Part shown: positions 21,212 to 64,000 of the stretch, piece after piece
How the letters are laid out: every line of letters begins with the position of its first letter
How positions within the stretch are numbered: the first letter of the stretch is position 1
From: Cymbomonas tetramitiformis
Lineage: Eukaryota; Chlorophyta; Pyramimonadophyceae; Pyramimonadales; Pyramimonadaceae
DNA: 64,000 bases
Assembly: GCA_001247695.2 (NCBI GenBank)
Contig: LGRX02025879.1
Span: forward strand, 62,001 to 126,000
Direction: 5' to 3'
Position numbers and translations under genes: made by a program
The notes under the pieces: model-generated
The model's database searches: none
What the model was told of the DNA's origin: nothing
What the model saw: the letters and a program-made list of their open reading frames with translations, nothing else

Positions 21212-21469
21212 GATCCGAATGACAAACCACGGTCTGGCAAAGGTAGCATAGCAGTTTTTATTTATCCACAGATATGGTACCCGCATGTATGCGTATCTGT
21301 GCAAGGGTATGATTTTGTACAAGGCTCACTACACCTTAGCAAGGAAGGATCAATTTCCTGCTTCTTATGCAACATAATGACAGAACATTAAGAGCAAGGT
21401 ATATAGATGATCGACATGTATTAGTATATATTACAAGAAGTAAGGGTAATAGGCTTAATATAATGTTAG

Positions 21470-21684: not shown

Positions 21685-23416
21685 TGCACAGCTCTATTCT
21701 AGATACAGGCTGAACCGGATGGATACGAATGTCGAGATCCCCGAAATCTAACTCATAAGCACGTCCATGGCTGAGCACTTTAGATATGATAAACGGCCCA
21801 ATGTATGGCTGTTTAAAGTGTCTGCCTGCCTCTGTCAAACCAGTCCATTGAATAAACTCAGTCCGTAGAAGAACTTTCTGCCCTACTGCAAATTGTCGGG
21901 GCATGTGAGTTTTATTGAATCTGGTTACCACTCGCAGAGGTCCGTGACGCAATTTGCGCAACTTGGGCTTCAGGCCCCTGTCACCTGGCAACGTCAAGTG
22001 TTGTCCATCCACCCACACCTGATCATTCACCTTATACTGCTGGAGCCGGTGCCGTGCATCAAACTGCTCCATCATGCGCTGCTGAGCCATTTGCAAACCC
22101 ACTCGTGCCGCCTGCAGCTGCTGCGCGAACTGCTTGGCCAACTGATGCGCTGTGCCTTGCTTGTCCGCTGCCGTGCGTCCTCCCTTTCTCCTCTTTGCGC
22201 CTCCCTCCAGTGCCGCGTCCATGAAGAGATCCAGCTGGGTTGCTGGCGCGTGTCCGTACACCAGCTCGAATGGTGAGAACCCTGTTACTGCTGACTTGGA
22301 GTCATTGATGGCGTACTCCACTGGAGCCACCCACAGGTCCCAGTCCTCCTGGTTCTCCGCTACATAACAACGCAGCATGCGCTCCACGGTGTGGTTACTA
22401 CGCTCAGCCTGGCCATCGCTCTGCGGGTGATAGGGGGTGGTGCTGGCTACCTTTACGCCCATCAATCGCATGAACACCTGTGTCAGGGCATCTCGAAAGC
22501 GCGGATCCCGGTCGCACACAATCTTCATCGGGGCCCCGTGCAGTCGCCACACTGCATACATGAACAACCTGGTCACCACCTCTGCTGAACTATCGTTATA
22601 CGTCATAGGGACCACGTGCACCATCTTACTCAGTTTACATGTAAATGTGGCGAAGGCATTCACACCCCTCTCTGTCGTGGGGAGACCAGTGGCGAAGTCT
22701 ATGCTTACCACTTCCCACAACCGGTTGGGCACAGTGTGGGGCTGCAACAAGCCTGCTGGGTATCCTTGGCGCGGCTGGGTTTGCTGACAGGTTACGCAAG
22801 TCTTCACCCATTCAGCTACGTCCAGGTCCATTCGCGGCCACCAGAATCGCCGTCTGACTCTGTCCAAGGTTTTGTCCCTCCATGTATGACCTGCTGCAGG
22901 GGCTTCGTGAGCGTCCCTCAAGACCAGCTCTCTCAGAGGGGAATCGGGAGCTAACACCACCTGATAGCGTCCTTCCGCCACTCTCCAGATGATGTTACTT
23001 ACCAGCCGAAAATGCTCGGTGCGGTGGTGCTGTGTGGCCAGTAATTCCTGCTTCAGGGCTGATAGGTACTCACTGCGCCTGTGTTCTGCCCGTAAGGCAC
23101 GCAGAAACATTCCCGGTTCCACCACACCTGCCTGGTCCCTGATCTTTGCTGCGGCTCCCTTGAGAGTCACTGCTGGTGATGCTGAAGGTCTTTCTCTCGG
23201 AGCTGTGATCTCGTCGAAGTGCTTACGCTGTGGTTTGGCCAATACCACCAAGACGGGCCATGGGATGGGCAACTCCTGTAAGGCTGTGCGGTGCCCCCTC
23301 TCTTCACCAGGAGAGATGAACATTCGGTTGGGCTCACCTTGCTCGTTCACGCGAGGTATGGTCTCCACGATCTCCATCCCATATTCTCGCAGCAAGGGCC
23401 GCCAGTCAGGAGTCAG
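21611..23416 (-). CDS. Integrase, chimeric C-terminus (Ty3/gypsy)
   Basis: DNA integrase that would join retroelement cDNA to host DNA. An H-x-H region (RDAHEAPAAGHTWRDKTLDR) and CVTC form the N-terminal zinc domain. The catalytic D, D and E lie in SIDFATG, CDRDPRF and DGQAERSNHTVERM. The first residues complete the Dam-like domain begun in the neighbouring frame: one extra base at about 23417 separates the frames, whereas the related element at 63 kb is continuous here. The C-terminal part up to VVTRFNKT follows family A. From HMPRQFAVGQKV onward it is family B. The frame runs past the ancestral join into a shifted tail because of the 7-nt duplication. Not functional as it stands without frame correction. 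Confidence 0.85.
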   Translation of the reverse strand: MTPDWRPLLREYGMEIVETIPRVNEQGEPNRMFISPGEERGHRTALQELPIPWPVLVVLAKPQRKHFDEITAPRERPSASPAVTLKGAAAKIRDQAGVVEPGMFLRALRAEHRRSEYLSALKQELLATQHHRTEHFRLVSNIIWRVAEGRYQVVLAPDSPLRELVLRDAHEAPAAGHTWRDKTLDRVRRRFWWPRMDLDVAEWVKTCVTCQQTQPRQGYPAGLLQPHTVPNRLWEVVSIDFATGLPTTERGVNAFATFTCKLSKMVHVVPMTYNDSSAEVVTRLFMYAVWRLHGAPMKIVCDRDPRFRDALTQVFMRLMGVKVASTTPYHPQSDGQAERSNHTVERMLRCYVAENQEDWDLWVAPVEYAINDSKSAVTGFSPFELVYGHAPATQLDLFMDAALEGGAKRRKGGRTAADKQGTAHQLAKQFAQQLQAARVGLQMAQQRMMEQFDARHRLQQYKVNDQVWVDGQHLTLPGDRGLKPKLRKLRHGPLRVVTRFNKTHMPRQFAVGQKVLLRTEFIQWTGLTEAGRHFKQPYIGPFIISKVLSHGRAYELDFGDLDIRIHPVQPVSRIELCNDSNQAPLPIASATDDHRRRATTV

Positions 23417-25800
23417 CCTGCGGAAAGTCAGGCAGCAGGAACAGCGCGGCTGTACTCTGGGGGGCGTGCCGGGCCTCTGAAGCGTAGTGCCTTAGGATGT
23501 CTGCAATACTCACCTTGGAATCCGAGAAGGGTGGGTTACACCACACCACACGACCCCTCCACTGTTCCTTTAGGCAGTCTGTCCAGAAAGTGTCCACCTG
23601 CCGGTTCTGCCCCATGAGATCGCAGCATGCGTCCACCTGGAACCGGCCGCCCAACACTCGCGCGTACTTGGCTTGTAGTCGACGGAACTCGGACGGAATT
23701 AGCTTCGAGTCCTGATTATCTACCAGGGGTTCCCCAGGTTGCATCCTTGGCGTGGACTGCTGCTGCTCCGCTGCTGGCTGCTGCTTCTCTGCTGGCTGCT
23801 GCTCATTCTGAGCTCGTGTCTGGACTCCCGCCATTGCTGGTAGCGCAGCCATCCTTTCCACTGTGACCATAGCGTCCAGCCATAAGTCCGGTGTTTCTGC
23901 CCACCAGAGACCGTTCAGCTGAGTTAGCTTACCGGTTACTTTGGGCACACTGACCGGTGGGTACTCATCTTCCTCCTCATTCGACGAGCTGAGCTCCAAG
24001 TCCAAAGGTGAAGTGGGATCCTCCTCCTCTACAACCTTCTTCAGGCCAGCCACCACGTTCTCCTCTTCCTCTGGTTTCCCTTTAGCTCCCGCTGCTCTTC
24101 TGCCCTCCTCTGCAGATACTGGCTGGTCGGTGCTCGGGTCCACATACCCTGCTTCCTTAAGCCCTTCTCGCGCCGTCGCCTGCACATAGTCCGGTCGCCG
24201 TGAGGCAGCGTCCGGTACCACCAGTGTGCGTCCTGGCACGTGCTCCATTGCATGCACTCCTACTTCCACCAGATCTTCATACCACCTGGCCTGTCGTCGG
24301 CTGAGCTCACGTCCAGGTGCAAACAGCCACTTCAGTGGAGCATGGTCCCCCATCAGCCTAAACTCCGTGAAGATTAGGTAATGCCTCCACGTCTGTGTGG
24401 TGCAGTGGTGAATCGCGGCCAGCTCTCGCTCACCCGCGTGGTAGTTCTGTTCGGCTGAAGAGAATTGCTTGCTCTCGAAGGCTATGGGCTGCAGGCCCTT
24501 GCCTAGATCCTGCATCAGTACGCCAGCTAATGCTACTGCGCTCGCATCGGTCTGCACAACAAAGGGGCTGGTGCCGCGATGAGCTGCTTCCTGATCGGGC
24601 AAGATCAAGGTCGGTGCAGTGGTGAGGGCGGTCTTGAGGCGTGTAAAAGTGTGTTCCTGCTCCGGCCCCCATTCCCATGGCACTAGGTTCTTGGTTAGCT
24701 TGGTCAGGGGGTGCGCCAAGTCAGCGAAACCCTGTATGTACCGTCGATAAAACCCAGCTAAACCCAAGAACTGCCGCACGTGCTTCACCGTTTCCAGTCG
24801 CGGCCAGTCCCGTATGGATGCTATCTTGTCCTGCTGTGGTCGGCAGCCAGTGCGGTCAATGACATGTCCCAGGAATCGTACTGAGCGTTTAAAGCATCGC
24901 AGCTTGGACTCCTTCAACTTGACTTTATTCTGTCGACATACCTCCAAAACCTGCCGCAGGTGGTCCAGGTGCTCCTCGGGGTTGCGCGAGAAGATCATAA
25001 TGTCATCCACAAAAACTCTGACGAACGGTAGGTTGCCCAAGTACTTCTGCATCATCCGCTGCCAACACGAAGGACTGCTGGACAGCCCCATTGGCATGAC
25101 CAACCACTCATATGCTCCAAACGGCGTGGTCATGGCGGTCTTCTCCACTGCTTCTTCCTCCATAGGGACTTGCCAAAACCCCCACAGTGCGTCAGCGGTA
25201 GAAAAGATGGTTGCTCCTTGCATGTCATCAATAAGAGCTTGCACGTCCGGTAAGGGGTAACGGTCCTTTACGGTGATCTCATTGATCTGCCTATAGTCAA
25301 TCACTAGCCTCAGTTCCTTCGGGTTAGAAGGTTTGGGTACCATCAACACCGGGCTGCCCCATGGCGAGGAAGAAGGGCGGATGTACCCTTTTGCCAGAAG
25401 CTCGTCTAATTGTGCACGCAGCTGCTTCATTTCCTCCATGGATAATTTGTAGCATCGCTTATGCCGAGCCCCCTCCTTGTACTCAGGATCCAGTACTAGC
25501 GGCGATTTGTGCTCTCGATCAACCACGCCCTTGGGTAGTTCCATTCCCACCACGTCCTGGTACCGCTGCTTCAGCTTCACCAGTTCGTCCAGGATCCATT
25601 GCGGTACCTCTGTGTCCTCCTCATCCGGCTTGGCCTCCTTGGTCTCGCCTCCGTGCTGCTTGACCTTGCCGTCCGTGCCGCTGCTCCGCTCATCACCAGG
25701 TGTCGCCGCAGCAGCTGGTGCATCCTTCCTGAAACAGCTATACCCATCTTTGCTTTGTCCTGTCTCAGCTTCTATAGGTGCTGCCAGTAGCCCAGTACTG
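23406..25800 (-). CDS. Reverse transcriptase - RNase H - Dam-like N6-adenine MTase domain
   Basis: The RT copies element RNA into DNA. Conserved blocks in order: LVIDYRQIN, FSTADALWGFWQVP, PFGAYEWLVMPMGLSSSP, then FVDDIMIFS (the YxDD-type active site as FVDD) and FLGHVIDRTG. RNase H follows (QTDASAVALAGVL, ERELAAIHH, DHAPLKWLF). After a Glu/Ser-rich spacer comes a domain with VDACCDLMGQNRQVDTFWTD and WCNPPFS, whose NPPF matches the catalytic motif IV of Dam-type adenine methyltransferases (NPPY/F). It sits between RNase H and integrase. The upstream frame is open from about 25800. The preceding linker frame joins only through a frame change near 25800. The frame ends at a stop caused by the extra base at about 23417. 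Confidence 0.85.
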
Positions 25801-26300: not shown

Positions 26301-26972
26301 TGTCTCTTACCCATCTTTATGTTGGCTGCAGCCAACATAAAACCCAAAGTTCCGAAGTATATAACTCATGGTTAATGATGCATATTGCTCGAAAGCAATG
26401 TTGTTTGAAGGGCTACTAGACCTTTACAAAATTGTCAATACGTGATATACCTGATTGCACCCACGGACGCTTGCATAATTGTGCCCTAGAGCTAGGGCGT
26501 GATCGCGAAAAGACAAAATGCACCTTATGTTGGCTGCAGCCAACATAAGTGGTCATAATAAATGTGGGCAATAGGGGCGGCATGAGAAGGGCATTAAAAA
26601 ATCGAAGACCTATGTTGTCAAGTTCTCGAGCTGCTCTTTCTGCAGTGTCTTGTCAAAATTTTCATCCGAGTTCATCTTGACCCTCAAAATATCGATCAAA
26701 GTAACATGGCTATGAAAACACCAAAAGTTTCTTGGGAAATCCACAAAATTGTACATTCTTTCGCATATTAACCCAAATTATCTTCGATAATTTTGAGCGG
26801 CCCAATATTGGTAACGCGTGTGTGAAAGAGAGCATCCCCGCCTTCATTTTGAGCTACTGAAATGTACCATCCGGTATCAACAGCTCCCGGGATTGTCAGC
26901 AAGGCTTATGTTGGCTCCAGCCAACATAAAGGGCCTTTATGTTGGCTGCAGCCAACAGATGGGTAAGAGACA
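26301..26972. mobile_element. TIR element ins1, 672 bp, with repeated palindromes
   Basis: Inverted ends TGTCTCTTACCCATCT, flanked by the 4-bp duplication GTTG (26297-26300 and 26973-26976). A palindrome with core TGTTGGCTGCAGCCAACA occurs four times: twice next to the right end, once next to the left end, once internally (26317, 26525, 26906, 26937). A 72-bp interior block (26619-26690) is shared with ins2 at 31.87 kb. It splits the protease/linker frame. Confidence 0.85.
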
Positions 26973-28175
26973 GTTGGGGTCGTCGGTGGCCTCCATTTTG
27001 AACGTGCCATCTGGAGCTAGGTACATCAGGTACGCTTCTTCGCCACTATTCTTCAAGGCCCGCAGATCCTTCCTGGCCTGCTTAGTACTGATAAGCTGCG
27101 CCTCTACCAGTCCCATGGCCTGCCCTGTTCCTGCAGATGATGACCCGGGGTTGCAACCCGCAATGACTACTTTCTGCGACCCATGTCCGAACCTCAAGCT
27201 GCCATACTGGGCGTAGTCAAATGTGACCCTCTTCTGTGCTCGTAGCCAGTCTCCACCCAGCACTATGTCCACTCCGAGCGCTAGTGGCATGACGCGCAGT
27301 GTAACCTGTTTGGCATAACTGCCCTTACGTGTCTCGGCTGTGAGCTTCGGGCGGACGCAAGAGTTGGCGTCGTACACAGTGCCATATGCTACCTGCACCT
27401 TCATCGGCGTCTCGTGTTCCTTGGGCTGGAGTTTAAACTTCTTGGCGGCCTCCACAGAAGTGAAGCTAGAAGAAGCTCCAGAGTCTACCAAAACCTTTAC
27501 TCGTACTCTGCCTACCCAAGCCCAGAAAATCAGCAGAGTGGGCCCCTTTGCGTCCATTGCGGCTAGTACATCTGCGTCCAGCCATTCCCCCCAGCGTCCA
27601 GACCCCGCGTCCACTCCTATCCCTGGTCTGATGCTGGCCAGTTTGTGCAGCCCCGGCTCCTTCTCAGGCGGATTCAGCTCCTCGTCCGAGTTGTCCCCCG
27701 GCAGATGGTACGTACCGGCCTCTGCTATCTTGGCTTGCCAGCGAGCTTGCCTGGTGATCAGATCTTCCGGTTCTGGATCATCGGGCCACGGCGCAGGTCG
27801 AGCTGCCTCAGCGTCCTGGTGCGCTCGGGTGACCTTCCTTAGCTGGTCGATACGCTCCCGAATTTGCGCCAATGCACTTCTGACTCTATGCCCGTGCACT
27901 TCCACTTCTTTCCTTCTGCGCGTTACCGTCTGTGCTGCTTTCCAGGCCGCTGATAGGTGCCCGTCGCGTAACCGTTGCTGGGCGTGTGACAGAACTGGCT
28001 GCTTAGCGCGATCCAGTTGTCGGCGCAGAGCTCTTCCGACCAGCTGGCGCGGAGCCACCTCCTCTCTAAAGCGCACCCTTCTGACTCCTGGGGGCTGCAA
28101 CGCGCGCTGGTACACCCCCTTCGTGCTAGGGGCCCCTTGACTCCCCTTGCCGAACAGAGGGAATCTGATCTGAAC
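26973..28175 (-). CDS. Aspartic protease region of the chimeric element
   Basis: Retropepsin-like protease that would cleave Gag and Pol. The key motif is VKVLVDSGASSSFTSVEAAK, with D-S-G-A as catalytic loop, at about residue 215, followed by a G-V-D-I-V-L-G-G-D-W block typical of Ty3 proteases. About 190 residues of basic, helix-rich sequence precede it. The frame begins directly after a TAG (28176-28178); the same frame is open upstream of that stop as far as 28787. It runs into ins1 at 26972, giving an artificial C-terminus, and continues in the linker beyond. Confidence 0.8.
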
Positions 28176-28462
28176 CTATGTTGGTTGGGATGCCTGTGCT
28201 GGACCGGCTTCTGGTTCAGTTCTTCCTGGTGCTACCACCGTGATTGGCCGTGACCTCTTCAACCAGCGTAATGCTCGCCTCATTTTCTCCACCGCCCGCT
28301 GTGCTGGTCCTGGTCCGTGCCTCAACCGATGATCCTCTCTGAAGTGAGTGATCCACCGGTAGGTCTGACTTTGCCTGCCTCTCTCTGGTTCCTTCCCAGA
28401 TCCGGCCTCCCTCCTGTTGGCCATAGCGAGGTGCGGAGTACTTACCTCGCGGGCCTGGGGGC

Positions 28463-31400
28463 CTAACCGCGTTGTCCGGGAGAGGAACCGGCCCCCGTCG
28501 ACTCTCCCTCGGTAAACTCCATGTGCTCCGGGGCTACCAGTGCCAGCTGCTGCTCCACTATCCCGCCTGATCCAGTATCCGCCCCCGCGTTCTTGAAGAT
28601 CTCGAAGGTCTCCTCCCAGATACACTTGACCCAAGCTGCCTTCCGCTGGGGCTGGTGTTGATGTGGACAGTCGCGAGCCAGATGCTCCTTTGACTTGCAT
28701 TTTCGGCAACCTGAGTAAGTTGACGATCCTAGTAACTGTCGGCCTTCCACTTCCGTTGGGGTCGCAGTCGTGGGCATGGCGTAGCACAGTTCCTTAGGAG
28801 ATGCCTCCTCCTCCCAGAACTCTGCCAAGGGAGCTACTGGGAAAGGGGATTGGTCGCGAGCAGTCTTCAGGTGCGTGGGATCGTTGCGCTCCTCTATTGT
28901 AGCTTGCTCCACATACTTACGCAGTAGATCTGCCTCCCATCCAACCTTTCCGGAGCTCTGGTTGAAGTCCACCTTTCCAACTAATTCTTTGTGGACCCTA
29001 GCATGCAGCTCTGGTGTTAATCCACTTAGAAATATTCCTGGTAATGCCGCCCTATTTACCGGTCCCGTCACCCCATGGTTGTGCAGCATTTCCAGCATGT
29101 CGAAGGACTCCATTAGCGAGTGGTGGAAAGTGGCGGCGTTCCTCCCAGCGTTCTTGCCAGAGGCCTGGCGAGCTCGCGACAGCATGTTGGGTAAAATGCT
29201 CAGATGGGCGTCAGTGACACATGCTCGCGCAAGTGTGGCCACTAAATCATCCGGACTCAGCATCTGGTTGGCCACCACCTTTTGGTTTAGAACTCCTTGC
29301 GCTGACCCCTCCACCCGGTCCCTGATGATCAGTCGTAGTTCTTCTGGAACGGTGGTGATGGTGGCTCCTTCCTGATCTCCGTCGTCACTGGACTTCTTCT
29401 TCGTCAACGCTCTCTTCACCAGTGCTTCCTTGAAGTGATCCTGCAGTTCTCTCATGAATTTCTTCAGAGGAGCTAACAGATGTCCAGATGGTCTGTCCCC
29501 GCTTGGACTGTCCGTAGGGCATGTGTACGTGGTGATGCGGTCTCTTAGCTTCCGTAGGGAGAGCAACAATCTGTCCTCAGCTTCCAGCTCCTTTAGCTTG
29601 GTCATTTCTGATCGCTGCTGGTCCCTCTCTGCCTGCTCCTGCTCGACTGGTCTTCGGGGCGGCGGGCAGTTCGGGGGTTCTTCCTCAGGTTCCTCTGGTG
29701 GAGGTGGAGGCTGGGACTGAGGGAACATATCAACCCCCTATGGCCGGTCTGTGGCCGTACGATGAGGGCTGTGGCCGAGGTTTGGCCGAGGGTGCTTATG
29801 CTTGTTGGCCGAGACGAATTATGTAAAATTTTAAAAATTTCCCCGAAATTTTGAGATTTCCATGATAATGTCATACTTAAAATTAAAATTTTGCGCCTGC
29901 GGCGGGCAATTTTTGATTTTGGCCGGAATGGCCGAAACTTGGCCGATGGAAATTTTGAGAGTTGGCCGTACGACATAAAAGTTTGATATGTTCCCTGCTG
30001 GGACTGTCGAGGTGGTTGTGACTGTGGTAAAGTGACATCTGGAATTGGAATGTTGGGCAGTTGGGGGCATGCACCAGACCAGGGCGGCTGGGTACAATTC
30101 TGACAGAGCGGAACTTGCTCACACGTTCTGTTGGGCCCCAGCATGACGTCCCATACTAACCCTGAGGCGACCTTCACCCCTCCAGATGGGGATAACAGCA
30201 GTCTACCGCATCTACTGCAATCCGTGCCGCTCTGAACAGCCTGATCCCGCCTTGGTCCTACCAGCTGCATCACCGGGCTGATCAACGCCTCCCAAGCCCT
30301 GTGGTTCTGGGCATGCCCATAGCTAATCGCTAGGGTGGAGTACTGTTTGGCTATGGCTACCGCCGTCTGAGCATCAGCGTCGTGGCGCTTCACGTAGTCC
30401 CCGATGCCCTGTTCCACAGTGATGGGTACCAATGGTGGGCATCTCCACTCTTCCAGGGCTTCGTTTTGGCTTGGTGGGGCCGCCTTAGCCGATGACGCCG
30501 AGCCTGATGCTTCATTATTGCCAGTCTTGGATGGGGATCCTCCGGACTCTGATCGAGTGGTTATGGCTAAACGCCACGCCTCGTCGGGACTCAGAGAGGG
30601 GTGCCGAGCTTTAGTCCAGTCATACCAGACCCACTCCGACTCCTCGGGTGTAGAGGCTACTGCGCAGATGGCCTCTTTTCCCTTCAGAACCACTCTCTGG
30701 GTTGCTATCAAAGCTTCCCAGCCCTCTTCTTCCCAACTCACCTCCTCACCTCGAGCTGCTGCCAATGCAATGGCCTTCTGACGCTCTTCTGGAAGACACT
30801 CAAAAGCCTGGTCCCGCAGGGCTTTGTCTTTAAACAAGGTTCTGACAGCCATTCCTTCCGTCAGCTCAGACTCCTCAACTACGGCCTTCCCTTTTGCCGC
30901 CTTGACTGTCCTCTTCTTAGCCAGCTGCTTCTTCCGCCTCCGTTGCCTTTTGCTGCTGCCGCTGCTGCTACGTTTGCCTCTACGCCTGCTGCTGCCGCCG
31001 CGGCTGCCTCGTTCCGGGGAAACTGTGGAGTCACTGGAGTCACTGGACCCGCTGCTGTCGCTGGGAGGGAAGCGGGGAATTGGTGAAAAGCCTGGTGGAT
31101 ATGCCAATCCGCATCTGGGTATTTCCACCCACTGCTGCACGGCTGGCTGCCTCTGGGCTTCTGCTGGGACCGCCGAGAGTGCTGTGAAGGAGTTGCGGGT
31201 AGGGGTCGCTCCACCTTCCCTAATTAATGCGCGCTCTGCCAAAGTTCACTCCTGCAAAGAGTTTCCTTGGTAGCCCCTCCTGGTGTAACAGGGTTCCGTG
31301 TTTGAGAGCGCGCCTGTATTCCTTCTCCGTCACTCCTGCTTGCAGCACTGCCAACACCTGCGGGGAGGCCGGATGCCAAAGGATCTTCCCGTTCCGGGTG

Positions 31401-33924
31401 CGTGGCTCACTATAGAACCACTGCGTGAGGGTCTTTTTCTCTCCAGCTGATAGTGCGACTATCTGTAATCTCACAGGGGCTGAAGCTTGTGACTCCGCAC
31501 TGTCTCCACTGTGGTCACTCCACGAAATGCCGCCTCCCTCTATCCATCTTACCACCCTGACCTTCTTGGCTACTACCCAAATTCAAAGTCCTACCATAAG
31601 GACCTACGTGCAAATGTGTTTTCCTCGCATAAACAGCACGTAATTGGTTCAACGTGCGATCACCCATCCTATTTATGAGTCAAATGAATATTTCAAGTTG
31701 TGGGTGCATCTGTAGGGTGACCTTTGGAGTGCTTAAATTGCGCACGCTTTGGTGGTGTTTTTTTTTCAAATTTCAGCAAAAAAAGCTAGGTCCTACCATA
31801 AGGACCTACATTTAAGCCCGGCTATTCGCTTCACAATAGGTCCTACGAAAATTTCGAGACCCATGTCGTCAAGTTCTCGAGCTGCTCTTTCCGTAGTGTC
31901 TTGTCAAAAATTCCATCCGAGTTCATCTTGCCCCTCAAAATAGTGGCTGAAGCAGCATTGGCTGTCAAAGCTGGAAAATGCACTAAATCGCCCAAAATAA
32001 TAATGCCCTTCGTCCGGCTCAACGATGAATACACGCCAAAATATCGCACATTCTGCCTATGTAGATGGCTCGAAAATTCAATTATTGTGTCTATATGGCG
32101 ACAATAGCGAGATAATAGTGTGTAAGCGGCATGTGCGCATTCAATATAGCATCCCCGACTTCAGACCAAAGCCAAAATTGACTCTTGAATTTTATGACAT
32201 TTGACTAAAAATGATGGGACAGGTTGATTGGGGTGCAGCTAGATGTCCGCTACGAGGTTATCGACTTGTGCTCTATTCTAAACATGATTGTATATAATGC
32301 TACGGTGCTACTGGATCATTGGACGCATGCTCAGCCTCCATAGTCTGTCGGCGAAAAATTATCAAAGATGTGCTATTATTTTAAGAGATTTTTGGCTTTA
32401 GAAAAGTTCTCGACGATTTTTTACGCTACCCGTGCCTAATACGGGTAGTGTAGCATCCCGCTTGGGTTAAAACTCGGCAAGTGGGAAAGAGGGGACTGAG
32501 TTCAGGTCCTAAATATGCCATAAACCGGAGGGTAGCCATTCACGATACCAATAGGACACCTTAAAAAATTATTGAAAAAATGGTCCTTATGGTAAGACCT
32601 ACAGCGTTCTAGGTCCTACCGTAAGGACCATCGGGTAGTAGCCATTCTGGTCCTTCCCACACTTACTGTACGCACGGTCCAGGGCCATCTGCTCAGGCGA
32701 CCGGAGATCCTTCCTCCAGTCTGGAGACCTCTGCCTGTCCCCTTGAGGAGCTGAGGGCTGTCCAGCTGGCTGAGCTTGCCGAGCTGGCTGAACTGGGAAC
32801 TCTGATGGCTGAAGGCTGGCTGATTCCCTCAGAACTCTGACAGACCGCGCTCCTTCCTGCAGCTGCGGTCCGACTTTCTCCAGGGCAGCTATCAACTCCT
32901 GGCTGGCCAGATCCTTCCTTGTTTCCATTGCTGGGCGCGGTGTTGCTGGAAGAGGCAGTGCCGGGAAATCCTCTGCGGAGACACTGGAGTTTGGTAATAC
33001 AAAATCCACGTGTTGTAATGCTGACGCTGGCTGAGTCGGATTTTCGCCAGAGCCTCCGGCGCTCAGGGTTGGGTTGGGGACCCTATCCCCCATCCTTGGG
33101 CAAGTGGTCGCGATATCTTGCTCAGCTACAGGTGAGGGATTCTGGCCGCGGACCGCTGGGACCGCGCCTGCTTGGGCGGCTGGGGCCGCACCTGCATTGC
33201 CCGCTGAAGCAACGTTTGCTGGCTGTTCCGGCGTTGAAGATGAGGACACCGTGGCAGTCGTGTTAGAAGACGATTGACCAGTCGCAACAGAACTGACGAT
33301 GGCTCTACTGCGCTGAATCAGTAGTTCTGTGCGCTCCGATAACCTCCTGGTCCGCCGTTCTGCGCGCCCCTCGCTGGCTACTGCTGGGGCGCTGGTCACA
33401 CCAGGTGTTGCCACCGCTACCAGTTCTCCCGGCGTCGTCGTTGTCAGAACTTCGCCAGGGCCTCCGGCGCACAGGGTCGGTGTGGGGACCCTATCCCCCA
33501 CCGTCGGGCAAGCGACCACAGCTGCACCTCCAGATACTGGCGACGTCGAAATTTCGCCAGGGCCTCCGGCGCACAGGGTCGGTGTGGGGACCCTATCCCC
33601 CACCGTCGGGCAAGCGACCACAGCTGCACCTCCAGATACTGGCGACGTCGAAATTTCGCCAGGGCCTCCGGCGCACAGGGTCGATGTGGGGACCCTATCC
33701 CCCACTTTCGGGCACGCGGTTGCAGAGACTGGCTGTGCTGCTAAAGACGCCATGTTCATTCTTTCCAGCTCCTGCAACTTAGTGGCGACTGGCGAGATTG
33801 CTGGTCCTACCGGTGTCGGTTCTCCTCCCCCCCTCAGGGCTGACAGGTCCTGCAAGGAAAGCAGGGGCAGTTCCGGGCGTGAGGGCACCGAAGGGGACCG
33901 TGGATACGGACCCCATCGGAGCAA
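28463..33924 (-). CDS. Gag of the chimeric element, interrupted twice
   Basis: One gag frame can be followed through three segments: 33924-32645, 31566-29997 and 29719-28463. They are separated by ins2 (with TTCT duplication) and the 277-bp element (with 10-bp duplication). Segment 1 has four copies of a 34-residue unit (CPTVGDRVPTPTLCAGGPGE). Segment 2 has an Arg/Ser-rich patch and a CSRCGRLL / CEQVPLCQNC cysteine cluster. Segment 3 has a capsid-like helical region and a zinc knuckle CRKCKSKEHLARDC (CX2CX4HX4C). It stops at 28463. Reaching the protease needs a frame change plus passage of the TAG at 28176. The apparent starts at 29728 and 31555 are artefacts of the insertions. Confidence 0.75.
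29720..29996. mobile_element. MULE-like MITE, 277 bp
   Basis: Perfect 14-bp inverted ends AGGGAACATATCAA, flanked by the 10-bp direct duplication GCTGGGACTG (29710-29719 and 29997-30006). The duplication length fits Mutator-like elements (usually 9-11 bp), though the ends are short. The interior is AT-rich with several GGCCGA words. It splits the gag frame, which is continuous without it. Confidence 0.85.
31567..32644. mobile_element. TIR element ins2 (family TGGCTACTRCCC), 1078 bp
   Basis: Inverted ends TGGCTACTACCC with the 4-bp duplication TTCT (31563-31566 and 32645-32648). Its ends match those of elements A and B. Imperfect palindromes GGTCCTACCATAAGGACC recur near both ends and internally (about 31589, 31787, 32582, 32611). 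The block 31870-31941 is shared with ins1. In the minus frame that block reads KMNSDGIFDKTLRKEQLENL, and the replacements relative to ins1 are mild, so it may be a remnant of coding sequence. Confidence 0.85.
33040..33722 (-). repeat. 102-bp in-frame tandem repeat in gag
   Basis: Copies start at 33451, 33553 and 33655 (spacing 102 bp, 34 codons). A diverged fourth copy lies near 33044-33110. The unit keeps the gag frame open. Confidence 0.9.
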
Positions 33925-34331
33925 ACGGGGCAGCTGGCACCTGCGTTTGCCACAGTGACCTCGGGTGCAGCTGGTGCTGGTGCGGTTGTTGCCGTTGCCA
34001 AAGCAATTGCCGCTGTAATTCCAGTTGCTGGTGGTGGTGCACGAACTGCTGCTGTAATTGCTGCTGGTGAAGAATTTGCTGCTGCGGCGTCATCATGATT
34101 CCCGCCCGCGTCAAAAACAGCTCCCGGGGGCTGCGTAGCAAATTGCCCATTGCAGTCGTACTGGAACAGCGGAAAATCAGCTGTTTGCGGTACGAAGGGC
34201 GGCGGAACCCCGAAGTGGGCGCCCAAATCCGACACCGCCGGCCCAAAAGACGTCACTGGCTGCTGAGAAACGCTCGCACCAGTGGCAGGCTGATATGTGC
34301 CGTAGTCATTTAAATTGCCGCCCATCATCAT
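33834..34331 (-). CDS. N-terminal Gag segment with Cys/His cluster
   Basis: A 165-codon frame starting MMMGGNLNDYGTY, rich in Pro, Ala and Thr, ending in CPVCSDGVRIHGPLRCPH and then CPCFPCRTC. This is a possible zinc-binding cluster. It overlaps the next gag frame (33924 downward) by about 90 bp in a different frame. The join might be a frameshift mutation or an intron: TTTCCTTGCAG just before the second frame looks like a splice acceptor. I recognise no homologue. Confidence 0.45.
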   Translation of the reverse strand: MMMGGNLNDYGTYQPATGASVSQQPVTSFGPAVSDLGAHFGVPPPFVPQTADFPLFQYDCNGQFATQPPGAVFDAGGNHDDAAAANSSPAAITAAVRAPPPATGITAAIALATATTAPAPAAPEVTVANAGASCPVCSDGVRIHGPLRCPHARNCPCFPCRTCQP

Positions 34332-35601: not shown

Positions 35602-38429
35602 CACAGATATCATCGCATCAACATTGAACCAGGGCATAAGCCACCATCACAGCCAGTTCGTACTATTCCAGTGCCTATGATGGAGGAGCTCAAACGACAA
35701 ATTATCAAATATGTCGAGCTGGGTATCCTTCGTCCATCATCATCACCATATGGGTGCCCAATCATTTTCGCTCCTAAGCCAGGGGGGAAGTGGACGATGT
35801 GCTGTGAACATCGAGCCCTTAATAACATCACCATAAAGGACACGTATCCATTGCCACCTCATGATACCCTTCTTGAACAGCTTAAGGGGGCACGATGGTT
35901 TAGCAGATTCGATTTCAATCAGTTTTTCCATCAGATACCCATACATCCAGACGACATCCACAAGACAGCAATACGTACAAGATATGGTTCATACGAGTGG
36001 ACAGTGATGCCCTTCGGGTTAACTAACGCTCCTGCGACCGCTCTACGTGTTGGAAATCGAGCATTCTTTGACTTCATCGATCAGTTCTTGGTCATTTTCA
36101 TGGATGACACCATAGTGTACAGTCCAGATTTTGACAGCCACGTGAAGCATGTTCGACAGTTCTTGCAGCGCTGCAGAGATCATCAGTTCTACATCAGGCC
36201 TTCTAAGGTTGAGTTGTTCGTCAGATCCATCGATTTTATCGGACATCATATCTCAGAGTCATCAGGCCTTTCAATCATCGAAGACAGAATCCGTGCAGTC
36301 ATGGCTATCCAGCCTCCAGTGTCATATGGTCCAACCGTTGGTAAACAGCCTCTACGCCGTATGGCTAAAGATGGCAAGTCATCTCTTCGGTCATTCTTGG
36401 GCATGACCGGCCAGTTTAGGAGATTTATACCAAAGTTCTCCAAGATTGCCGAGCCGCTCAATCGTCTCCTTAAGGATAATGCAGGGTTTGTCTGGGAATC
36501 TGAGCAGCAGCAGGCATTTGATAATCTCAAAAGTGCCATCTGCCATGCTCCAGTACTACAGCTTCCAGATCAGAAACTGCCATCTATTATGGAGGTCGAT
36601 GGATCAGGCACACACGTTGGTCAAGTAGTATTGCAGGATCAAGGAAAAGGTATGAAGCCATGTGGCTATCACAGCGTCACTCTTTCTGATACACAGAGAC
36701 GCTGGCCTATTCCTGAGATCGAGCTATTTGCCATTGTGGAGGGCTTCCGATTCTTTCGCCACATCTTGCTGGGAGCTCCAGAGACTATTGTTCGCTCAGA
36801 TCATCAGCCACTGGTTTATTTCCAGTCCAAATCCACACTAAGCCCCAAACAGGTGAGGTGGTTGGATGAGCTCTCCGAGTACAACTTTCGAATAGAGCAC
36901 ATTTCTGGCGAGAAGAATAAGGTTGCAGATGCACTTATTCGTATTTCTACACTCTTTGAACTCACTGATTGTCTGCAACATATAGACGTCGGCGAATCAC
37001 ATTCAACAGACATTCCGTCTACAGATTCTACATTCATTGCTCTTATATCTGCATCATCAGCTCATCAGCTCCACGACATTATTATATCTCAGTATGATCG
37101 TGACACATTTGCACAGACTATATTATCTAAGCTGGCATCATCGACATCATCACAGTCAGTCAGCAATTTCGAGCTCATTCAGGGATTGATCTATCGCAAG
37201 ACCATTTTTGGCAGACAGCTTTACATTCCACCTACTGCCAAAGTTCCTACAGATGACGGTGAGATCACACAGCTTCGCCACATTCTACTTCATGAGTGCC
37301 ACTCAGCCACTATTTCTGGTCATATAGGCAAGAATCGCATGCTTCATTTATTGCGTAGCCGATATTACTGGCCAGGAATGACGAAGGCAGCCATTCAGTA
37401 CATTCGGGAGTGCCCCGTGTGTCAACGCCAGAAAACGAGAAGACACAAACCGTATGGTCAGTCACATATACGATATTGTGTGCCTAAGACAAAATGGCTT
37501 GATGTATCTCTTGACTGGATTATTGACCTGCCTATCACCACTAATGGGCACGACAGTATTTTCGTGGTAATGTGCCAATTCTCTCATCGCTGTCATCTCA
37601 TTCCCTTCAACATGACCTGGACTGCTCAGCATACTGCTTCAATATATATGCAGCATATCTTCAAGCTCCATGGTCTTCCGAGGAACATCATCTCAGATCG
37701 AGACCCCAGATTTACTTCTTCATTCTGCCAAAAACTGTGGAAATCTACTGGTACGAGATTGTCTATGACGTCTTCACACCATCCACAGTCGAATGCAAGC
37801 AATGAGAGAAGCCATGCCTTCATTGAGGACATCCTCAGGTATTTTCATTTTGTTTGATGCATGATTCACCATCCTCTGGTTTATAAACTGATTAGATAGT
37901 ATTGTTTCTCCTCAGGTGTTGTTACAACGATACTTCAGCCAATTCGTGGGAGGACAAGTTGCCTCTGGTGGAGTTTGCAACTAACAACACGGTTTCTGCT
38001 ACAATTGGTTACACACCATTTTATCTCGACTCGATGGCGCAGCTACCTTCGCCTCATGATCTGGCAATCACTATTCCGCCAGAAGCTCCTGTTCCAATAC
38101 AGAATGCTATTCAAGACCATTTTGACCAGTACTCGGCTGTACATGCCAACGCGGTAGATAACATTTCCCGAGCAGCAGAAATCAACCGAGCCAGATTCAA
38201 TAAGACTCGCATGCCCCGACAATTTGCAGTAGGGCAGAAAGTTCTTCTACGGACTGAGTTTATTCAATGGACTGGTTTGACAGAGGCAGGCAGACACTTT
38301 AAACAGCCATACATTGGGCCGTTTATCATATCTAAAGTGCTCAGCCATGGACGTGCTTATGAGTTAGATTTCGGGGATCTCGACATTCGTATCCACCCGG
38401 TTCAGCCTGTATCCAGAATAGAGCTGTAA
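35602..38429 (+). CDS. Pol of family B: RT - RNase H - integrase, with an intron
   Basis: RT blocks: HRINIEPGHKPP, PPHDTLLEQLKGARWFSRFD, MPFGLTNAPAT, FMDDTIVYS (active site FMDD). RNase H: MEVDGSGTHVGQVVLQD, then the end motif KNKVADALIR. Integrase: HH-CC zinc domain (HECHSATISGH, CPVCQ), catalytic D in VSLDWIIDLP, D in SDRDPRF and E in HHPQSNASNERSHAFIED. The frame is open from 35602 to the intron at 37839 and resumes at 37916, ending at 38429 after the MPRQFAVGQKVLL tail. No Dam-like domain occurs between RNase H and integrase. Gag and protease are missing upstream, so the 5' end is truncated. The stop at 38427-38429 (TAA) reads TGC in the minus copy, so it is a mutation before the chromodomain. 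Confidence 0.85.
37839..37915 (+). other. 77-bp GT-AG intron inside the integrase
   Basis: GTATTT...CTCCTCAG. Splicing joins ATCCTCAG to GTGTTGTTAC and restores EDILRCCYNDTSANSWEDKL, matching the spacing of other Ty3 integrases. The word TCCTCAGGT occurs at both borders (37832-37840 and 37909-37917). Confidence 0.75.
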
Positions 38430-38645
38430 AATGACTCAAATCAAGCACCTTTGCCTCTGCCACAGATGATCACCGAAGAAGGGCAACCACTGTTTGAGAT
38501 ATCACATATACTCTCAGATAAGATCACTAGAGGTGTCAAGTACTATTTAGTGCGATATGCAGGCTACGGCCCTGAGCATGACACCTGGGTCAAAGCCGCA
38601 GAGCTGATCAATGCAGCAGACATGATAGCTGCCTATGAAGGCTAA
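38430..38645 (+). CDS. Chromodomain of family B, separated by a stop
   Basis: Same frame as the integrase after the TAA: NDSNQAPLPLPQMITEEGQP, then ISHILSDKITRGVKYYLVRY, AGYGPEHDTW, ending AAYEG and a stop. It is a chromodomain (YYLVRYAGYGPEHDTW corresponds to the K-W-x-G-Y-x-x-x-x-x-T-W core). It lies at the C-terminus of integrase, as in chromoviruses. Confidence 0.8.
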   Translation, partial: NDSNQAPLPLPQMITEEGQPLFEISHILSDKITRGVKYYLVRYAGYGPEHDTWVKAAELINAADMIAAYEG

Positions 38646-38740
38646 CATTATATTAAGCCTATTGCCCTTACTTTTTATAATATATACTAATACATGTCGA
38701 TCATCTATATACCTTGCTCTTAATGTTCTGTCATTATGTT

Positions 38741-59888: not shown

Positions 59889-60337
59889 CTATACAGCCTA
59901 GTATTACAATCACTTTTCGATATAATGTATGGTCGCAAACCTATAACATCTATATCCTTATGTTCAGTCCTGGCATACAGCCTAACACTAACATGTACAA
60001 CTTGTCCTTAATTTCTCTTGATCAACACTAACTGAGGTTCACTTTTCCCAAGCTTCCCCTTTCATCATGTTGCTCTTTAACTCACTAGCAGGATTCCTAG
60101 ATTGACATCTGTCATCGGCCAATTACCAGCAGCCCATGCCTGATTCTGTTACTTCTCCACCAATCATCAGGCAGATCATGATACTTGTATTGCCATTGCA
60201 GATCTTCTCCTGGAATCTACCATGAATCATTTCATTACAGATCTTCTCCTGAAATCTGCTTTGTCATCGATTATTTTCCCCACTCGCTCACTTATGTGAA
60301 TATCCGATAATTCCCCATTATTCGCGAGTGGGGCATG
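59889..60337. other. No supported gene
   Basis: Spacer between the duplication cluster and the minisatellite. An inverted pair CCCCACTCGC / GCGAGTGGGG brackets 60280-60335. Confidence 0.4.
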
Positions 60338-60852
60338 CTCGGGGCATACCCATGGGGCATACGCCGCGGGGCATACCCATGGGGCATACGCCTCGGGGCA
60401 TACCCATGGGGCATACGCCTCGGGGCATACCCATGGGGCATACGCCTCGGGGCATACCCATGGGGCATACGCCTCGGGGCATACCCATGGGGCATACGCC
60501 TCGGGGCATACCCATGGGGCATACGCCTCGGGGCATACCCATGGGGCATACGCCTCGGGGCATACCCATGGGGCATACGCCTCGGGGCATACCCATGGGG
60601 CATACGCCTCGGGGCATACCCATGGGGCATACGCCTCGGGGCATACCCAAGGGGCATACGCCTCGGGGCATACCCATGGGGCATACGCCTCGGGGCATAC
60701 CCATGGGGCATACGCCTCGGGGCATACCCATGGGGCATGCGCCTCGGGGCATACCCATGGGGCATACGCCTCGGGGCATACCCATGGGGCATACGCCTCG
60801 GGGCATACCCATGGGGCATACGCCTCGGGGCATACCCATGGGGCATACGCCC
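60338..60852. repeat. 27-bp minisatellite, about 19 copies
   Basis: The unit is made of two related halves, GGGGCATACCCAT and GGGGCATACGCCTC. Copies are almost identical, with single changes near 60650 and 60738. Because 27 is divisible by 3 and the unit has no stop codon in several frames, long repetitive open frames appear on both strands. I do not treat them as genes. The array lies just downstream of the element's ORF. Confidence 0.95.
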
Positions 60853-60931
60853 ATAGCCCTGAGCTGTGCCTCCCGGTACAACTCCTCCCCCCTCAAGAGC
60901 GGCCTATCTCCCGATGCCGCTCCCGGTGTCG

Positions 60932-62448
60932 TCAGGTATCAAACTCCCCGAACTGAAGATGGTGGAAGAGATGACGCAACAGTGGAGCCGGTACTGGGTA
61001 CACGGCGTGAGCATCTCGCGCTCCTGGTTGCTGTGAAGACGATGGCCCAAGCTGAGCAGTTTCAGGGTGCCCTCCGGTGGCCCATTTACATGCGCAAGGT
61101 GTCCGCGAGGTGCACTCCAGCAATGGCGTTGGTGGAGGTGAGCTAGTCCAGATACACGTTGGTTTACGATATCGCTCCCCATACTTACAGTAGGTGCAAA
61201 AAAGAGGCTGTGGCAGTTCACGAACCACTGACCGCAACCGCAGCGCATTCGGGTATCTTCCTTCAGGATTTTCAAGAAACCAGTGCTTGGGCTTCAAGTA
61301 CTCAATAGCATCCAGGGTGCATTTCACACTCTTGTCTGCTCCTTCCAGATCAGGAGGTCCTCCCGTAGTGCGCGCCTGACTGTACTGGGTACATGGAGGG
61401 CTGGCCCAGATGACATCAAAGAATCCCGGTGGGTACTGAGTGGGGTCCCAGTCCTCCATTGATGCGAGATGGTCGGGTTGCCATCGTGGGTCGTTGTCGA
61501 GCGTAACCACCGAGGCAGACGGAAAGCACTTTGCAAACTCTCTTTCCACCGATCCGGTTCCGCTGAACAACACCAAGATTCTCACTGGCCGGGTCTTTCG
61601 CTCTTCAAGGTCGGTGATCACCACTAGCTCTCCGTTCTCCAAGATTTCCACCCGCTCCCACGGCAGACAGAAGTCTTCCGGTGGAGAATCCACTTCTGGG
61701 ACGTCACATTGATGTTCCATTAGCTGGGATAAAGTGACACCAAGGTGAACGGGCTGTCGCTGTTGACGTTGACGTCGGCCATGCTCAACGGACTTCAGCA
61801 TGTCTGCCTGCATGCCCAACCGCCGTGCCTCGAACTCCTTGAGCTGCTGATTCTCCCCGCCTCTGTCCATCTTGTCTCTGGAGCGCCACTGGTCGTGAGC
61901 TGCCGAGTAGCCCGTCCAGCGTACCTTCCATTCCTCCACTGACTTACCCTTGACCATGCGTACACGATACGCCAGAATTTTGTCCACGTGAGCTTCCGCT
62001 TGCCCATCTACCATTACCGGGTCAGGTACAGGCAGTTGTGCTCGAGATGCAAACTCATCCATGCCGGAAACGTATGGCTTCAGGCGGTGCTGTGCAAACA
62101 CGTCGTGAATGCGCCAATGCGGTGGTAGAGCCAACCGATAAGCCACCGGTGCCCCGCGGTCCGCCTCCGCCAGCTCCGCCTGCAAATCGCTGTAGAAGCA
62201 CTCCACGACAGTTACAGGCCCGTGCCAACGCTTGCCGAGCTTCCGGCACAGCGCACGGTCCATCACCTTCTCCGTCAGGTGACGAGCCTCGATCCATACC
62301 AGATCCCCCACTGCGTACCTATGCTGCTTGTGGCGCCGGTCGAACTGCTCCCGCTGGCGCTGCTGAGCCAACTCAAGGCGGCCACGCGCGTCCCGCAACT
62401 GCGCCGAAAACTTCACAGCCATCTCATGGGCGGTACCCACCCCCCTTT
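60932..62448 (-). CDS. Integrase C-terminus - chromodomain - C5-cytosine-MTase-like domain
   Basis: This is the downstream frame of the element's polyprotein; residue numbers count from the frame's first Met (62524). The Ty3 integrase tail (about 30-155; VGDLVWIEARHLT, WHGPVTVVE, HDVFAQHRLKPYV) is followed by a chromodomain-like segment (177-235; HVDKILAYRVR, EEWKVRWTGYSAAHDQW). A C5-cytosine methyltransferase fold follows (315-525): motif I VLFSGTGSVEREF, an acidic SAM-ribose position in VTLDND, motif IV WASPPCTQYSQ with the catalytic Pro-Cys, ENP in place of the usual ENV, then YGERYRKPTCIW and a C-terminal HPETAQLGPS / YPVPAPLLRHL block. The protein ends at 60932. It is entered from the preceding frame by a -1 shift at a six-base G run (62440-62445). 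Activity is not established. Confidence 0.85.
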
Positions 62449-64000
62449 TCGTCGCGCAGAGCCAGGGAGAGTCGCAGCCTCCAGGAACATGTCCAGCTGA
62501 GACATCGGAGATACCCCGTAGCATAGCTCAAAGGGAGTGAATCCTGTGACGTCACTACGCGAGTCGTTGATAGCAAACTCCACGTTTGTCATGTAGAGGT
62601 CCCAGTCATCCGGATTGGCACCCACGAACGAGCGCAACATGTCCTCGACCACCCTGTTGGTGTGTTCCGCCTGCCCGTCTGAACGAGGGTTGTACGGAGT
62701 GGTAGAAGCCACCCGCACCCCCATAAGTCTCATTAGCTCACGCCAGAACGAGTCTTGGAACCTGGGGTCACGGTCACATACAATCTTCATGGGGGCTCCA
62801 TGCTGCCTCCAGACCACGTCGAAGTAGATGCGGGCCACCGTCTGCGCAGAGCTGTCCCCAAAGTTCATGGGCATAAGGTGTACCATTTTGCTCAGCTTGC
62901 ACGTAAAGGTGACGAAGGCGTCATTCCCCTGGGCGGTGAGCGGCAACCCTGTAACGAAGTCCACGCTTACATCTTGCCAGTTGCGTTGAGGAATAGCGTG
63001 CGGATTCAACAATCCATCGGGGTAGGATGCCCGGGGACGAACTGCTTGACACGTAGGGCATGAGGCCACCCACCCTGCCACGTCTTCGGAGGCATTTTTC
63101 CACCAGAACCTGCGTAGAACTCTTTCCAGCGTTTTCTCCCGGCCAGTGTGACCTGCAGCGGTGGAGTCGTGGGCATCCTTGAAGACCACCTCTCGCAAGG
63201 GAGAGTCTTCGCCGAGGACCAACTGGTACCGTCCCGCGGTTACACGCCACAGCACGTTCCCGACGATGCGGAAGTCCCTCGTGGCATGGTGCGGAGCCGC
63301 AAGGATGTTATCCCGCAGCTGCTGAAGGGGACCGGCACGTGCGTACTCATCGTTTAGGGACTCCAGGAATGTAACTTCCGTGGGGAGGCTCGAAGCATCG
63401 CGGGTCTTAGCAGCCTTACCCTGTCGCACTATCGGAGGCGCCACCCGGGGATGCCGCACTCTTGGCGCTAGCTGTCGGGTAGGGGGAGCATGCACCACTA
63501 GCACGGGCCACGGAAGGTCGTGGAGTACACCGTCAGGAGTTTCGAACAGCTGGGTGGGCACTCCTCGTTCGTCATGAGTAGGTATCACTTCCACCAGCCT
63601 CATACCAGCCATCCTGAAGAGTCGCCTCCATTGAGGCATGCGAGCCTGGATGTCCGGTAGAAGGAACACTGCCGAGGTATGCGCGGGGTCCTGCCGCCAT
63701 TCATCTACATACTTGCGCAGCACTGCCTCGATGGAGATATGACTGCTGGAGTATGGGGGATTACACCAGACGTGCTTTCCCCTCCACTGCTGTCGCAGAC
63801 AATCAGTCCAGTATGCGTCTACTTGACGGTTCCGTCCACCCAGGTCACAACACGCGTCAACATCGAAGCTGCCGAACTGTCGTTGGAGGCGCTCAAAGAC
63901 CTCCTTGCGCACCTTCCAATCCTGCCGATCGGCTGGCTGTTTGGTGGCTCGACCAGACGGCTGAGTTGGCTGCTTAGGACCTCGGAAATCCGTAGCAGGC
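62413..64000 (-). CDS. Dam-like N6-adenine MTase domain - integrase (partial, runs off the window)
   Basis: The frame is open to the window end. Numbering from the Met at 63912: Dam-like domain 14-165, with VDACCDLGGRNRQVDAYWTD and motif WCNPPYS (NPPY 51-54, the catalytic tetrad of Dam-type adenine MTases) and a continuing fold (AVFLLPDIQARMPQWRRLF, LVEVIPTHDERG). Integrase zinc ligands are H248, H255, C285 and C288. The catalytic triad is D318 (SVDFVTG), D380 (CDRDPRF) and E416 (SDGQAEHTNRVVED). Unlike the chimeric copy, Dam and integrase are in one uninterrupted frame. It terminates at 62413 after RRKGG, where the G run allows a -1 shift into the next frame. Confidence 0.85.
   Translation of the reverse strand, partial: PATDFRGPKQPTQPSGRATKQPADRQDWKVRKEVFERLQRQFGSFDVDACCDLGGRNRQVDAYWTDCLRQQWRGKHVWCNPPYSSSHISIEAVLRKYVDEWRQDPAHTSAVFLLPDIQARMPQWRRLFRMAGMRLVEVIPTHDERGVPTQLFETPDGVLHDLPWPVLVVHAPPTRQLAPRVRHPRVAPPIVRQGKAAKTRDASSLPTEVTFLESLNDEYARAGPLQQLRDNILAAPHHATRDFRIVGNVLWRVTAGRYQLVLGEDSPLREVVFKDAHDSTAAGHTGREKTLERVLRRFWWKNASEDVAGWVASCPTCQAVRPRASYPDGLLNPHAIPQRNWQDVSVDFVTGLPLTAQGNDAFVTFTCKLSKMVHLMPMNFGDSSAQTVARIYFDVVWRQHGAPMKIVCDRDPRFQDSFWRELMRLMGVRVASTTPYNPRSDGQAEHTNRVVEDMLRSFVGANPDDWDLYMTNVEFAINDSRSDVTGFTPFELCYGVSPMSQLDMFLEAATLPGSARRKGGWVPPMRWL

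Follow-up and report, generated by a model that had tools for sequence, protein, structure and literature searches.

A Ty3 chromovirus of Cymbomonas tetramitiformis with adenine- and cytosine-methyltransferase domains on either side of its integrase

Retrotransposons with one captured methyltransferase are already known, with C5-cytosine enzymes in Gypsy, DIRS and LINE elements and Dam-type adenine enzymes in DIRS elements. Goodwin and Poulter reportedly described the DIRS retrotransposons with a Dam-type methyltransferase domain. Work on Klebsormidium nitens uncovered KnitGypsy-Dnmt3, in which a C5 methyltransferase lies inside the Pol open reading frame (ORF) and evolves with a Ka/Ks below 0.2 (PMC5890265). 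In the same work, De Mendoza et al. presented retrotransposon DNA methyltransferases (DNMTs) as enzymes that perform CG methylation, and suggested methylation of the complementary DNA (cDNA) for DIRS elements that bear them (PMC5890265). Dam domains in DIRS and C5 sequences in both Ty3/Gypsy and DIRS have also been noted (PMC6338049), as has a ParB-methyltransferase protein in a DNA transposon of Ectocarpus (PMC12477816). The element considered here lies at the end of a 64,000-nucleotide stretch of the green alga Cymbomonas tetramitiformis, hereafter the window (C17006:62001-126000 of the 851.7-Mb assembly that was also searched for copies). What the window captures of it is the 3′ half of a Ty3 chromovirus, which encodes a Dam-type adenine methyltransferase, an integrase, an SH3 domain, a chromodomain and a C5 methyltransferase, followed by a 3′ long terminal repeat (LTR). 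Its distinctive feature is a single DDE integrase to which both chemistries are joined; they are selectively kept and occur in many near-identical copies. No element with both enzymes was found in the open-access PubMed Central (PMC) literature, a search that leaves subscription papers and Repbase outside, and as far as these searches go the dual-methyltransferase element is undescribed. The 2015 genome paper on C. tetramitiformis did mention scaffolds of more than 10,000x coverage with homology to chromodomain, RNase H and cytosine DNA methyltransferase (PMC5741210). These scaffolds probably represent the window family, although the element itself is not described in the passages concerned.

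Two long minus-strand ORFs fill positions 60932-64000 of the window. The first (62413-63999, 528 aa, cut by the window edge) encodes the Dam domain together with the H2C2 and catalytic (rve) domains of the integrase, and the second (60932-62527, 531 aa) encodes SH3_Tf2-1 and Chromo domains followed by a region with a weak match to PF00145. Past base 64000 the contig continues with the protease homology, reverse transcriptase (RT) and RNase H of the same element. The Dam domain is recognized well above the Pfam cut-off (PF05869, E=1.3e-12, 48.1 bits versus 28.1) and also by phrog_111 of PHROGs (E=4.2e-16). The integrase is matched in Pfam by Integrase_H2C2 (5.6e-20) and by rve (5.5e-6; 27 bits, under the cut-off of 32.6). 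Its closest PDB relative is Ty3 7q5b, which is the first fold match of its model, the best 50 listed all being integrases. SH3_Tf2-1 (8.8e-9, Pfam) and a chromodomain above its cut-off (PF00385, 7.3e-7, Pfam) are also present, the latter placed after the integrase core. The combination of RT-RNase H, H2C2/DDE integrase, chromodomain and an LTR pair in a sister copy identifies the element as a Ty3/Gypsy LTR retrotransposon of the chromovirus kind. A DIRS identity was rejected on the basis of the DDE triad and the protease homology upstream of RT, a tyrosine recombinase not having been specifically searched for.

Assignment of the C5 domain is less straightforward in Pfam, where PF00145 is sub-threshold in the window ORF (E=0.0015, 18.5 bits versus a cut-off of 22), and no NCBIfam match was obtained for the domain. 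Relatives score on both sides of that cut-off, with P0182 under it (17.3 bits) and P0155 and P0035 over it (29.3 and 26.0 bits). The weak assignment is settled by the match to phrog_757, a DNA methyltransferase family of PHROGs, at 1.3e-15. Moreover, the AlphaFold model of ORF 60932-62527 is of high confidence across most of the C5 domain, and its best 50 PDB fold matches are all C5 methyltransferases. Among 45 near-full C5 domains, [SC]PPC occurs in 44 and [EQ]NP in 43. Judged by its sequence relationships, the domain is of the prokaryote/phage kind and not Dnmt3. A eukaryotic Dnmt3 identity was considered and rejected, given the phrog_757 match and PDB sequence matches that lack Dnmt3; the fold ranks mix all classes. 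With the A3 profile of the C5 domain these PDB matches are Dnmt2-type chains (3e-6 and 7e-6) and HemK (0.04), while the single window sequence matches only ZMET2/Dnmt1-type chains at about 0.1. The first-pass annotation had proposed a Ty3 element with an adenine methyltransferase, a C5 methyltransferase and a chromodomain, and all of these are present at the positions it gave. The profile searches it called for matched both methyltransferase families, PF05869 above its cut-off and the C5 family through PHROGs and fold, with PF00145 below.

The same annotation spoke of one polyprotein, which describes the family and not the window copy. In the window copy, the Dam-integrase ORF and the C5-side ORF stand in different frames. 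P0182 (993 aa, ENA), however, matches both window ORFs at 96% identity and runs through Dam, integrase, chromodomain and C5 without a break, and P0184 likewise holds all four domains in one chain. Altogether, Dam and C5 share a chain in 11 of 191 proteins, several of these being partial or odd gene models, and the best named protein matches are the C. tetramitiformis gene models P0001 and P0123 (97% each). In the genome, at least 81 scored matches of 94-100% identity were found, five of them with an internal stop; these copy counts are lower bounds, the 81 having been scored among 11,926 candidates. Open frames exceed 2,700 aa in 8 of the 81 and 2,000 aa in 15. Fourteen of 26 fetched copies (L113-L124, L126 and L127), all picked for long frames, carry protease homology, RT-RNase H, Dam, integrase, chromodomain and C5 in a single open frame. 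A genome search with P0184 spanned Dam through C5 in 31 of 44 rows, 28 of these 31 being free of stops.

Frame-shifted copies occur elsewhere in the genome too. Thirteen of the 81 genomic matches start at residue 1, that is, in the shifted part, and integrase and chromodomain are in different frames in all 11 copies fetched from among them. A programmed or subfamily-specific frameshift was rejected, since the Dam nucleotide difference is 0.0327 among frame-shifted copies and 0.0245 between groups. The frame-shifted copies thus form no subfamily, so that a biological cause is no likelier than recurrent slippage at the G run or an error of assembly there.

Purifying selection acts on both methyltransferase domains in the window family. 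This was measured as the mean pairwise ratio of nonsynonymous to synonymous differences per site (pN/pS) among 26 copies (27 loci were fetched, the window copy contributing two), which were not a random sample: they were the top amino-acid matches to the C5-side ORF, 15 of the 26 having been taken for long open frames. The ratio is 0.04 for Dam (23 copies; bootstrap 0.024-0.090) and 0.07 for C5 (24 of 26 copies, two length variants dropped; bootstrap 0.049-0.101), much as it is 0.05 for the integrase (22 copies; bootstrap 0.037-0.082), 0.05 for RT-RNase H (15 of 17 full matches, after a copy with a stop and a length variant were set aside) and 0.04 for the chromodomain (26 copies). Bootstraps over copies never exceed 0.101. 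Usable copies retain NPPY in 23 of 23 cases, PPC in 24 of 24 and ENP in 23 of 24. The decay of NPPY and PPC beside a conserved RT and integrase, which the first-pass annotation had named as the outcome that would count against it, is thus not seen. Among the 11 copies that were not picked for an open frame, pN/pS is 0.05 for Dam (8 usable) and 0.08 for C5 (10 usable), and the Dam domain, integrase core and RT all lay outside the query by which copies were picked. Over longer distances, differences at the three codon positions between the two dual elements of the window are 0.37/0.31/0.65 in Dam and 0.33/0.24/0.65 in the integrase, against 0.52/0.41/0.77 in the spacer. P0182 and P0184 are similarly 0.70 identical in Dam, 0.71 in the integrase, 0.57 in the chromodomain and 0.55 in C5, versus 0.48 in the Dam-integrase linker and 0.27 in the chromodomain-C5 linker.

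The second dual element, on the minus strand at 21.6-29.7 kb of the window, comprises ORFs for a gag-like protein, protease, RT-RNase H, Dam and integrase. Its Dam domain likewise sits between RNase H and the integrase. The nearest PDB structures to its RT are those of Ty3 (7q5b, 9e-75; 4ol8, 1e-74), and this RT is 65% identical to that of the window-end element; the two elements are 55% identical over the C-terminal half of Dam plus the integrase (412 columns). P0019, a protein of its family, has the C5 domain after the chromodomain and gives 52 main genomic matches at 98-99%, three with a stop. Pieces fetched from this family have an unbroken Dam domain with NPPF in three of three cases and a C5 domain with PPC and ENP in two of two. 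Both enzymes therefore occur in two deeply diverged families.

Phylogeny places the two domains on one side of the integrase tree (79 rows, midpoint root), for which rows were gathered with Dam-integrase and C5 queries that favour carriers. A branch with SH-aLRT support of 98 sets apart 36 rows, 29 of which have Dam and/or C5 (21 Dam, 13 C5, 5 both). The other seven mostly have short flanks, and include P0017, with RT and no Dam match, and P0044, with 71 aa beyond the chromodomain and no C5. On the opposite side, none of 43 rows has Dam or C5; 24 of them have RT-RNase H upstream of the integrase without Dam, and the others are short-flanked or were not scored. In the C5 tree (56 rows), a 35-row group with support of 96 includes 31 rows with retroelement domains, and outside it fall 13 standalone proteins without such domains and eight IMG/VR rows, represented by the matched stretch alone. 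Since the retroelement C5 domains group apart from the standalone proteins and IMG/VR stretches, the tree suggests that they stem from one capture. The likeliest origin of the C5 domain is a single acquisition from an enzyme of phage or bacterial type, with inheritance alongside the integrase ever since. Domain identities track integrase identity (Dam r=0.97, 10 sequences; C5 r=0.89, 9 sequences). Distant metagenomic members carry Dam (P0026, P0028 and P0032-P0034) or C5 (P0035, P0039, P0051, P0052 and P0135), and the five Dam-integrase proteins keep NPP[YFW] even though Dam identities in that set fall to 23%. A scan of IMG/VR with the Dam-integrase ORF gave no relative. For Dam, an iterated profile that drifted into the integrase (126 proteins) was discarded in favour of a restricted one, and Dam matches overlapping the integrase were dropped.

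Table 1. Features of the two dual-methyltransferase elements in the window.
Feature	Coordinates	Strand	Remarks
Dam-type DNA adenine methyltransferase domain, between RNase H and integrase	63478..63930	-	NPPY at 63751-63762
Integrase H2C2 zinc-binding domain	63031..63204	-	Integrase_H2C2 match
Integrase catalytic core	62686..62970	-	D-D-35-E triad present
Overlap of the two ORFs	62413..62527	-	Frame change near 62440 at a G run in the window copy
Tf2-1-like SH3 domain, integrase C-terminal region	62069..62152	-	SH3_Tf2-1 match
Chromodomain	61823..61996	-	Cage W and Y kept, first aromatic replaced by A
C5-cytosine methyltransferase domain, phage/prokaryote type	60965..61591	-	PPC at 61391-61399, ENP at 61265-61273
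3′ LTR of window copy	59889..60880	-	95% to LTR of another genomic copy; without about the last 160 nt
27-nt tandem array, 19 copies, inside LTR	60338..60851	.	Also in downstream stretches of other copies compared
Second element: reverse transcriptase + RNase H, same clade	24186..25415	-	RT closest to Ty3 in the PDB
Second element: Dam domain (NPPF)	23231..23720	-	Frame-split here; unbroken in three fetched family copies
Second element: integrase	22235..22963	-	3′ end below ~21924 chimeric with plain Ty3 element
Second element: aspartic protease ORF 26937-28175, CCHC gag-like ORF 28463-29737	26937..29737	-	Protease matched in Pfam

The window family is young and multicopy. In one sister copy, the two LTRs (TGTACC...GGTACA) are 1,134 bp long, differ by three mismatches and are accompanied by a 5-bp target duplication, CACGG, over a span of about 15.4 kb, and in a second genomic copy 142 nt of a 5′ LTR were seen. 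In the window copy, where only the 3′ LTR was seen, the C5 ORF stops about 50 nt before the LTR starts. The 27-nt array also follows C5 in the other genomic copies compared, where its length varies. In one copy, a 5′ LTR was not found within 2.5 kb upstream of the long frame and is located further up; in the two copies looked at (C366 and C22237), about 4.5-5.4 kb separate the 5′ LTR from the long frame.

Other features of the window include a plain Ty3 element at 35602-38740 on the plus strand, with RT-RNase H, integrase and weak similarity to the chromodomain region, and no Dam or C5 match. Its 3′ end at 38191-38740 recurs, inverted, as the 3′ end of the second dual element (21371-21924, about 554 nt in three pieces, 97-98%), the junction lying within the C-terminal region of the integrase. 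This chimeric join may resemble template switching, or may be an assembly join. Elsewhere, a 496-aa ORF without a Pfam match (32599-34089, minus) contains 102-nt repeats bearing a CPTVGDRVPTPTLCAGG motif, a 755-aa ORF (9311-11578, minus) has neither a Pfam match (E 0.01) nor a PHROGs match (0.1), and two tandem arrays of 30-nt units at 18764-19769 are mutually inverted repeats.

How might two methyltransferases serve a Ty3 element? The anatomy and the selection are firm, whereas we infer every later step, both methylation and its effect. The favoured reading, which we consider somewhat better than an even bet, is that of a Ty3 Pol (protease-RT-RNase H-Dam-integrase-SH3-chromodomain-C5) whose two enzymes ride with the integrase and methylate the cDNA or the flanks of the insertion. 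Cleavage of Pol would leave the integrase with the Dam domain on its N-terminal side and the C5 domain on its C-terminal side, so that both enzymes could stay on the cDNA-integrase complex. Adenines and cytosines would then be methylated on new cDNA within the particle, or else in the sequence that surrounds the insertion. The resulting mark could make the cDNA resemble host DNA; alternatively, it might shield the cDNA against nucleases or deaminases of the host, or decide what chromatin state the new copy takes on. It is also conceivable, though we hold this only tentatively, that the integrase of a whole Ty3 clade is a double writer of N6-methyladenine (6mA) and 5-methylcytosine (5mC) on incoming cDNA or at the insertion site, providing a two-base identity tag through the life cycle in a pairing older than the separate families.

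Several observations weigh against a simple two-enzyme writer. The motif [NDS]PP[YFW] is lost in 6 of the 34 Dam domains that span it, including those of two related proteins, P0184 (ENA) and P0185 (CYMTET_53215), which read SPPS/SPPP in an otherwise conserved domain. Because P0184 nonetheless keeps its C5 motifs, adenine activity may be dispensable, and there may be a sub-lineage without adenine methylation. This sub-lineage could represent enzyme loss or repurposing. On such grounds it might be argued that only the C5 enzyme matters and that Dam now serves chiefly as a structural or DNA-binding module in the linker between RNase H and integrase, methylating little or nothing. We regard this as rather unlikely, considering the NPPY intact in every usable window-family copy, the low pN/pS of Dam, the NPPF of the second family, and the aromatic motif in five distant metagenomic proteins. 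Further points against the favoured reading are that Dam is identified by sequence, the best 50 fold matches of the model being integrases, and that a chain with both Dam and C5 was seen in Cymbomonas and in two ENA proteins alone, the distant relatives, with their flanks cut, having one or the other and never both in one chain. Choosing copies by C5-side similarity and, for 15 of 26, by open frames also lowers pN, and copies with a broken or missing domain were excluded from pN/pS (Dam split or absent in L104, L110 and L130, 3 of 26; integrase broken in L107, L109, L110 and L130, 4 of 26). CpG observed/expected shows no pattern across the window copy (0.85), the second dual element (0.68), the plain Ty3 element (0.66) and two other stretches (0.78 and 0.85). 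A CpG/GATC footprint of self-methylation was likewise discarded, nothing distinctive being seen. The chromodomain had been taken in the first-pass annotation as a reader of histone marks, a role that does not sit well with its HP1-type cage, the positions of which we assigned from HP1. The cage reads A/W/Y in the window copy, and only 6 of 54 related chromodomains retain the full set of three aromatics. Since the first aromatic is absent and complete cages are so few, recognition of methylated histone H3 lysine 9 by the window-family chromodomain is doubtful.

Another possibility is that the substrate is not the element but the host or invading DNA viruses, the enzymes working in trans for antiviral defence or to change the host epigenome. 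Such a role has been proposed for accessory domains of retrotransposons (PMC6338049), and the Cymbomonas genome has many endogenous viral elements (PMC10675990). The position of both domains inside Pol, on either side of the integrase in both families, would instead favour cDNA or target DNA as substrate, and action in trans is accordingly thought improbable. It could also be supposed that both domains are mere passengers, captured neutrally in a dead element or brought together by an assembly join, given that the window copy changes frame and that in the second element the Dam frame is split and the 3′ end chimeric. This is very hard to reconcile with pN/pS values of 0.04-0.07, dozens of near-identical copies in two families (94-100% and 98-99%), an identical domain order in ENA proteins and gene models, the near-identical LTRs of one copy, and the high-coverage scaffolds of the genome paper, and it has almost no claim on belief. 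Whether retrotransposons methylate their own cDNA, and what the mark does, could now be tested in one organism. Nanopore sequencing of native DNA can detect both 6mA and 5mC, and the plain Ty3 element of the window offers a natural internal control for methylation calls.

Comparison with known systems helps to place the element. The closest family models for its C5 and Dam domains are those of phage DNA methyltransferases, phrog_757 and phrog_111; the phage matches themselves are 26-39% identical for C5 (18 records) and 28-33% for Dam (best 20 of 657 records). The Chlamyvir-related chromoviruses of Cymbomonas are likewise Ty3 elements with a chromodomain, and from the same genome, but words starting in "methyl" are absent from the main text on them (PMC10675990). 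SymbioDIRS-Dnmt3 and SymbioLINE-Dnmt are also retrotransposons with captured C5 methyltransferases, although they belong to other element classes and methyltransferase families, and the passages on them describe no second methyltransferase (PMC5890265). DIRS elements with a Dam-type enzyme share PF05869 in a pol ORF with RT and RNase H; they have no aspartic protease or DDE integrase and use a tyrosine recombinase (PMC3783388). The Cymbomonas element, by contrast, has protease homology, a Ty3-type RT, a DDE integrase and LTRs, plus the C5 enzyme. Finally, KnitGypsy-Dnmt3 resembles it in being a Gypsy element with a C5 methyltransferase within Pol under purifying selection, but its enzyme is Dnmt3-related, its repeats are DIRS-like, and the passages on it mention no adenine methyltransferase (PMC5890265). 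Set beside it, the Cymbomonas element has a C5 domain of phage/prokaryote type, ordinary LTRs in a sister copy, and an added Dam domain.

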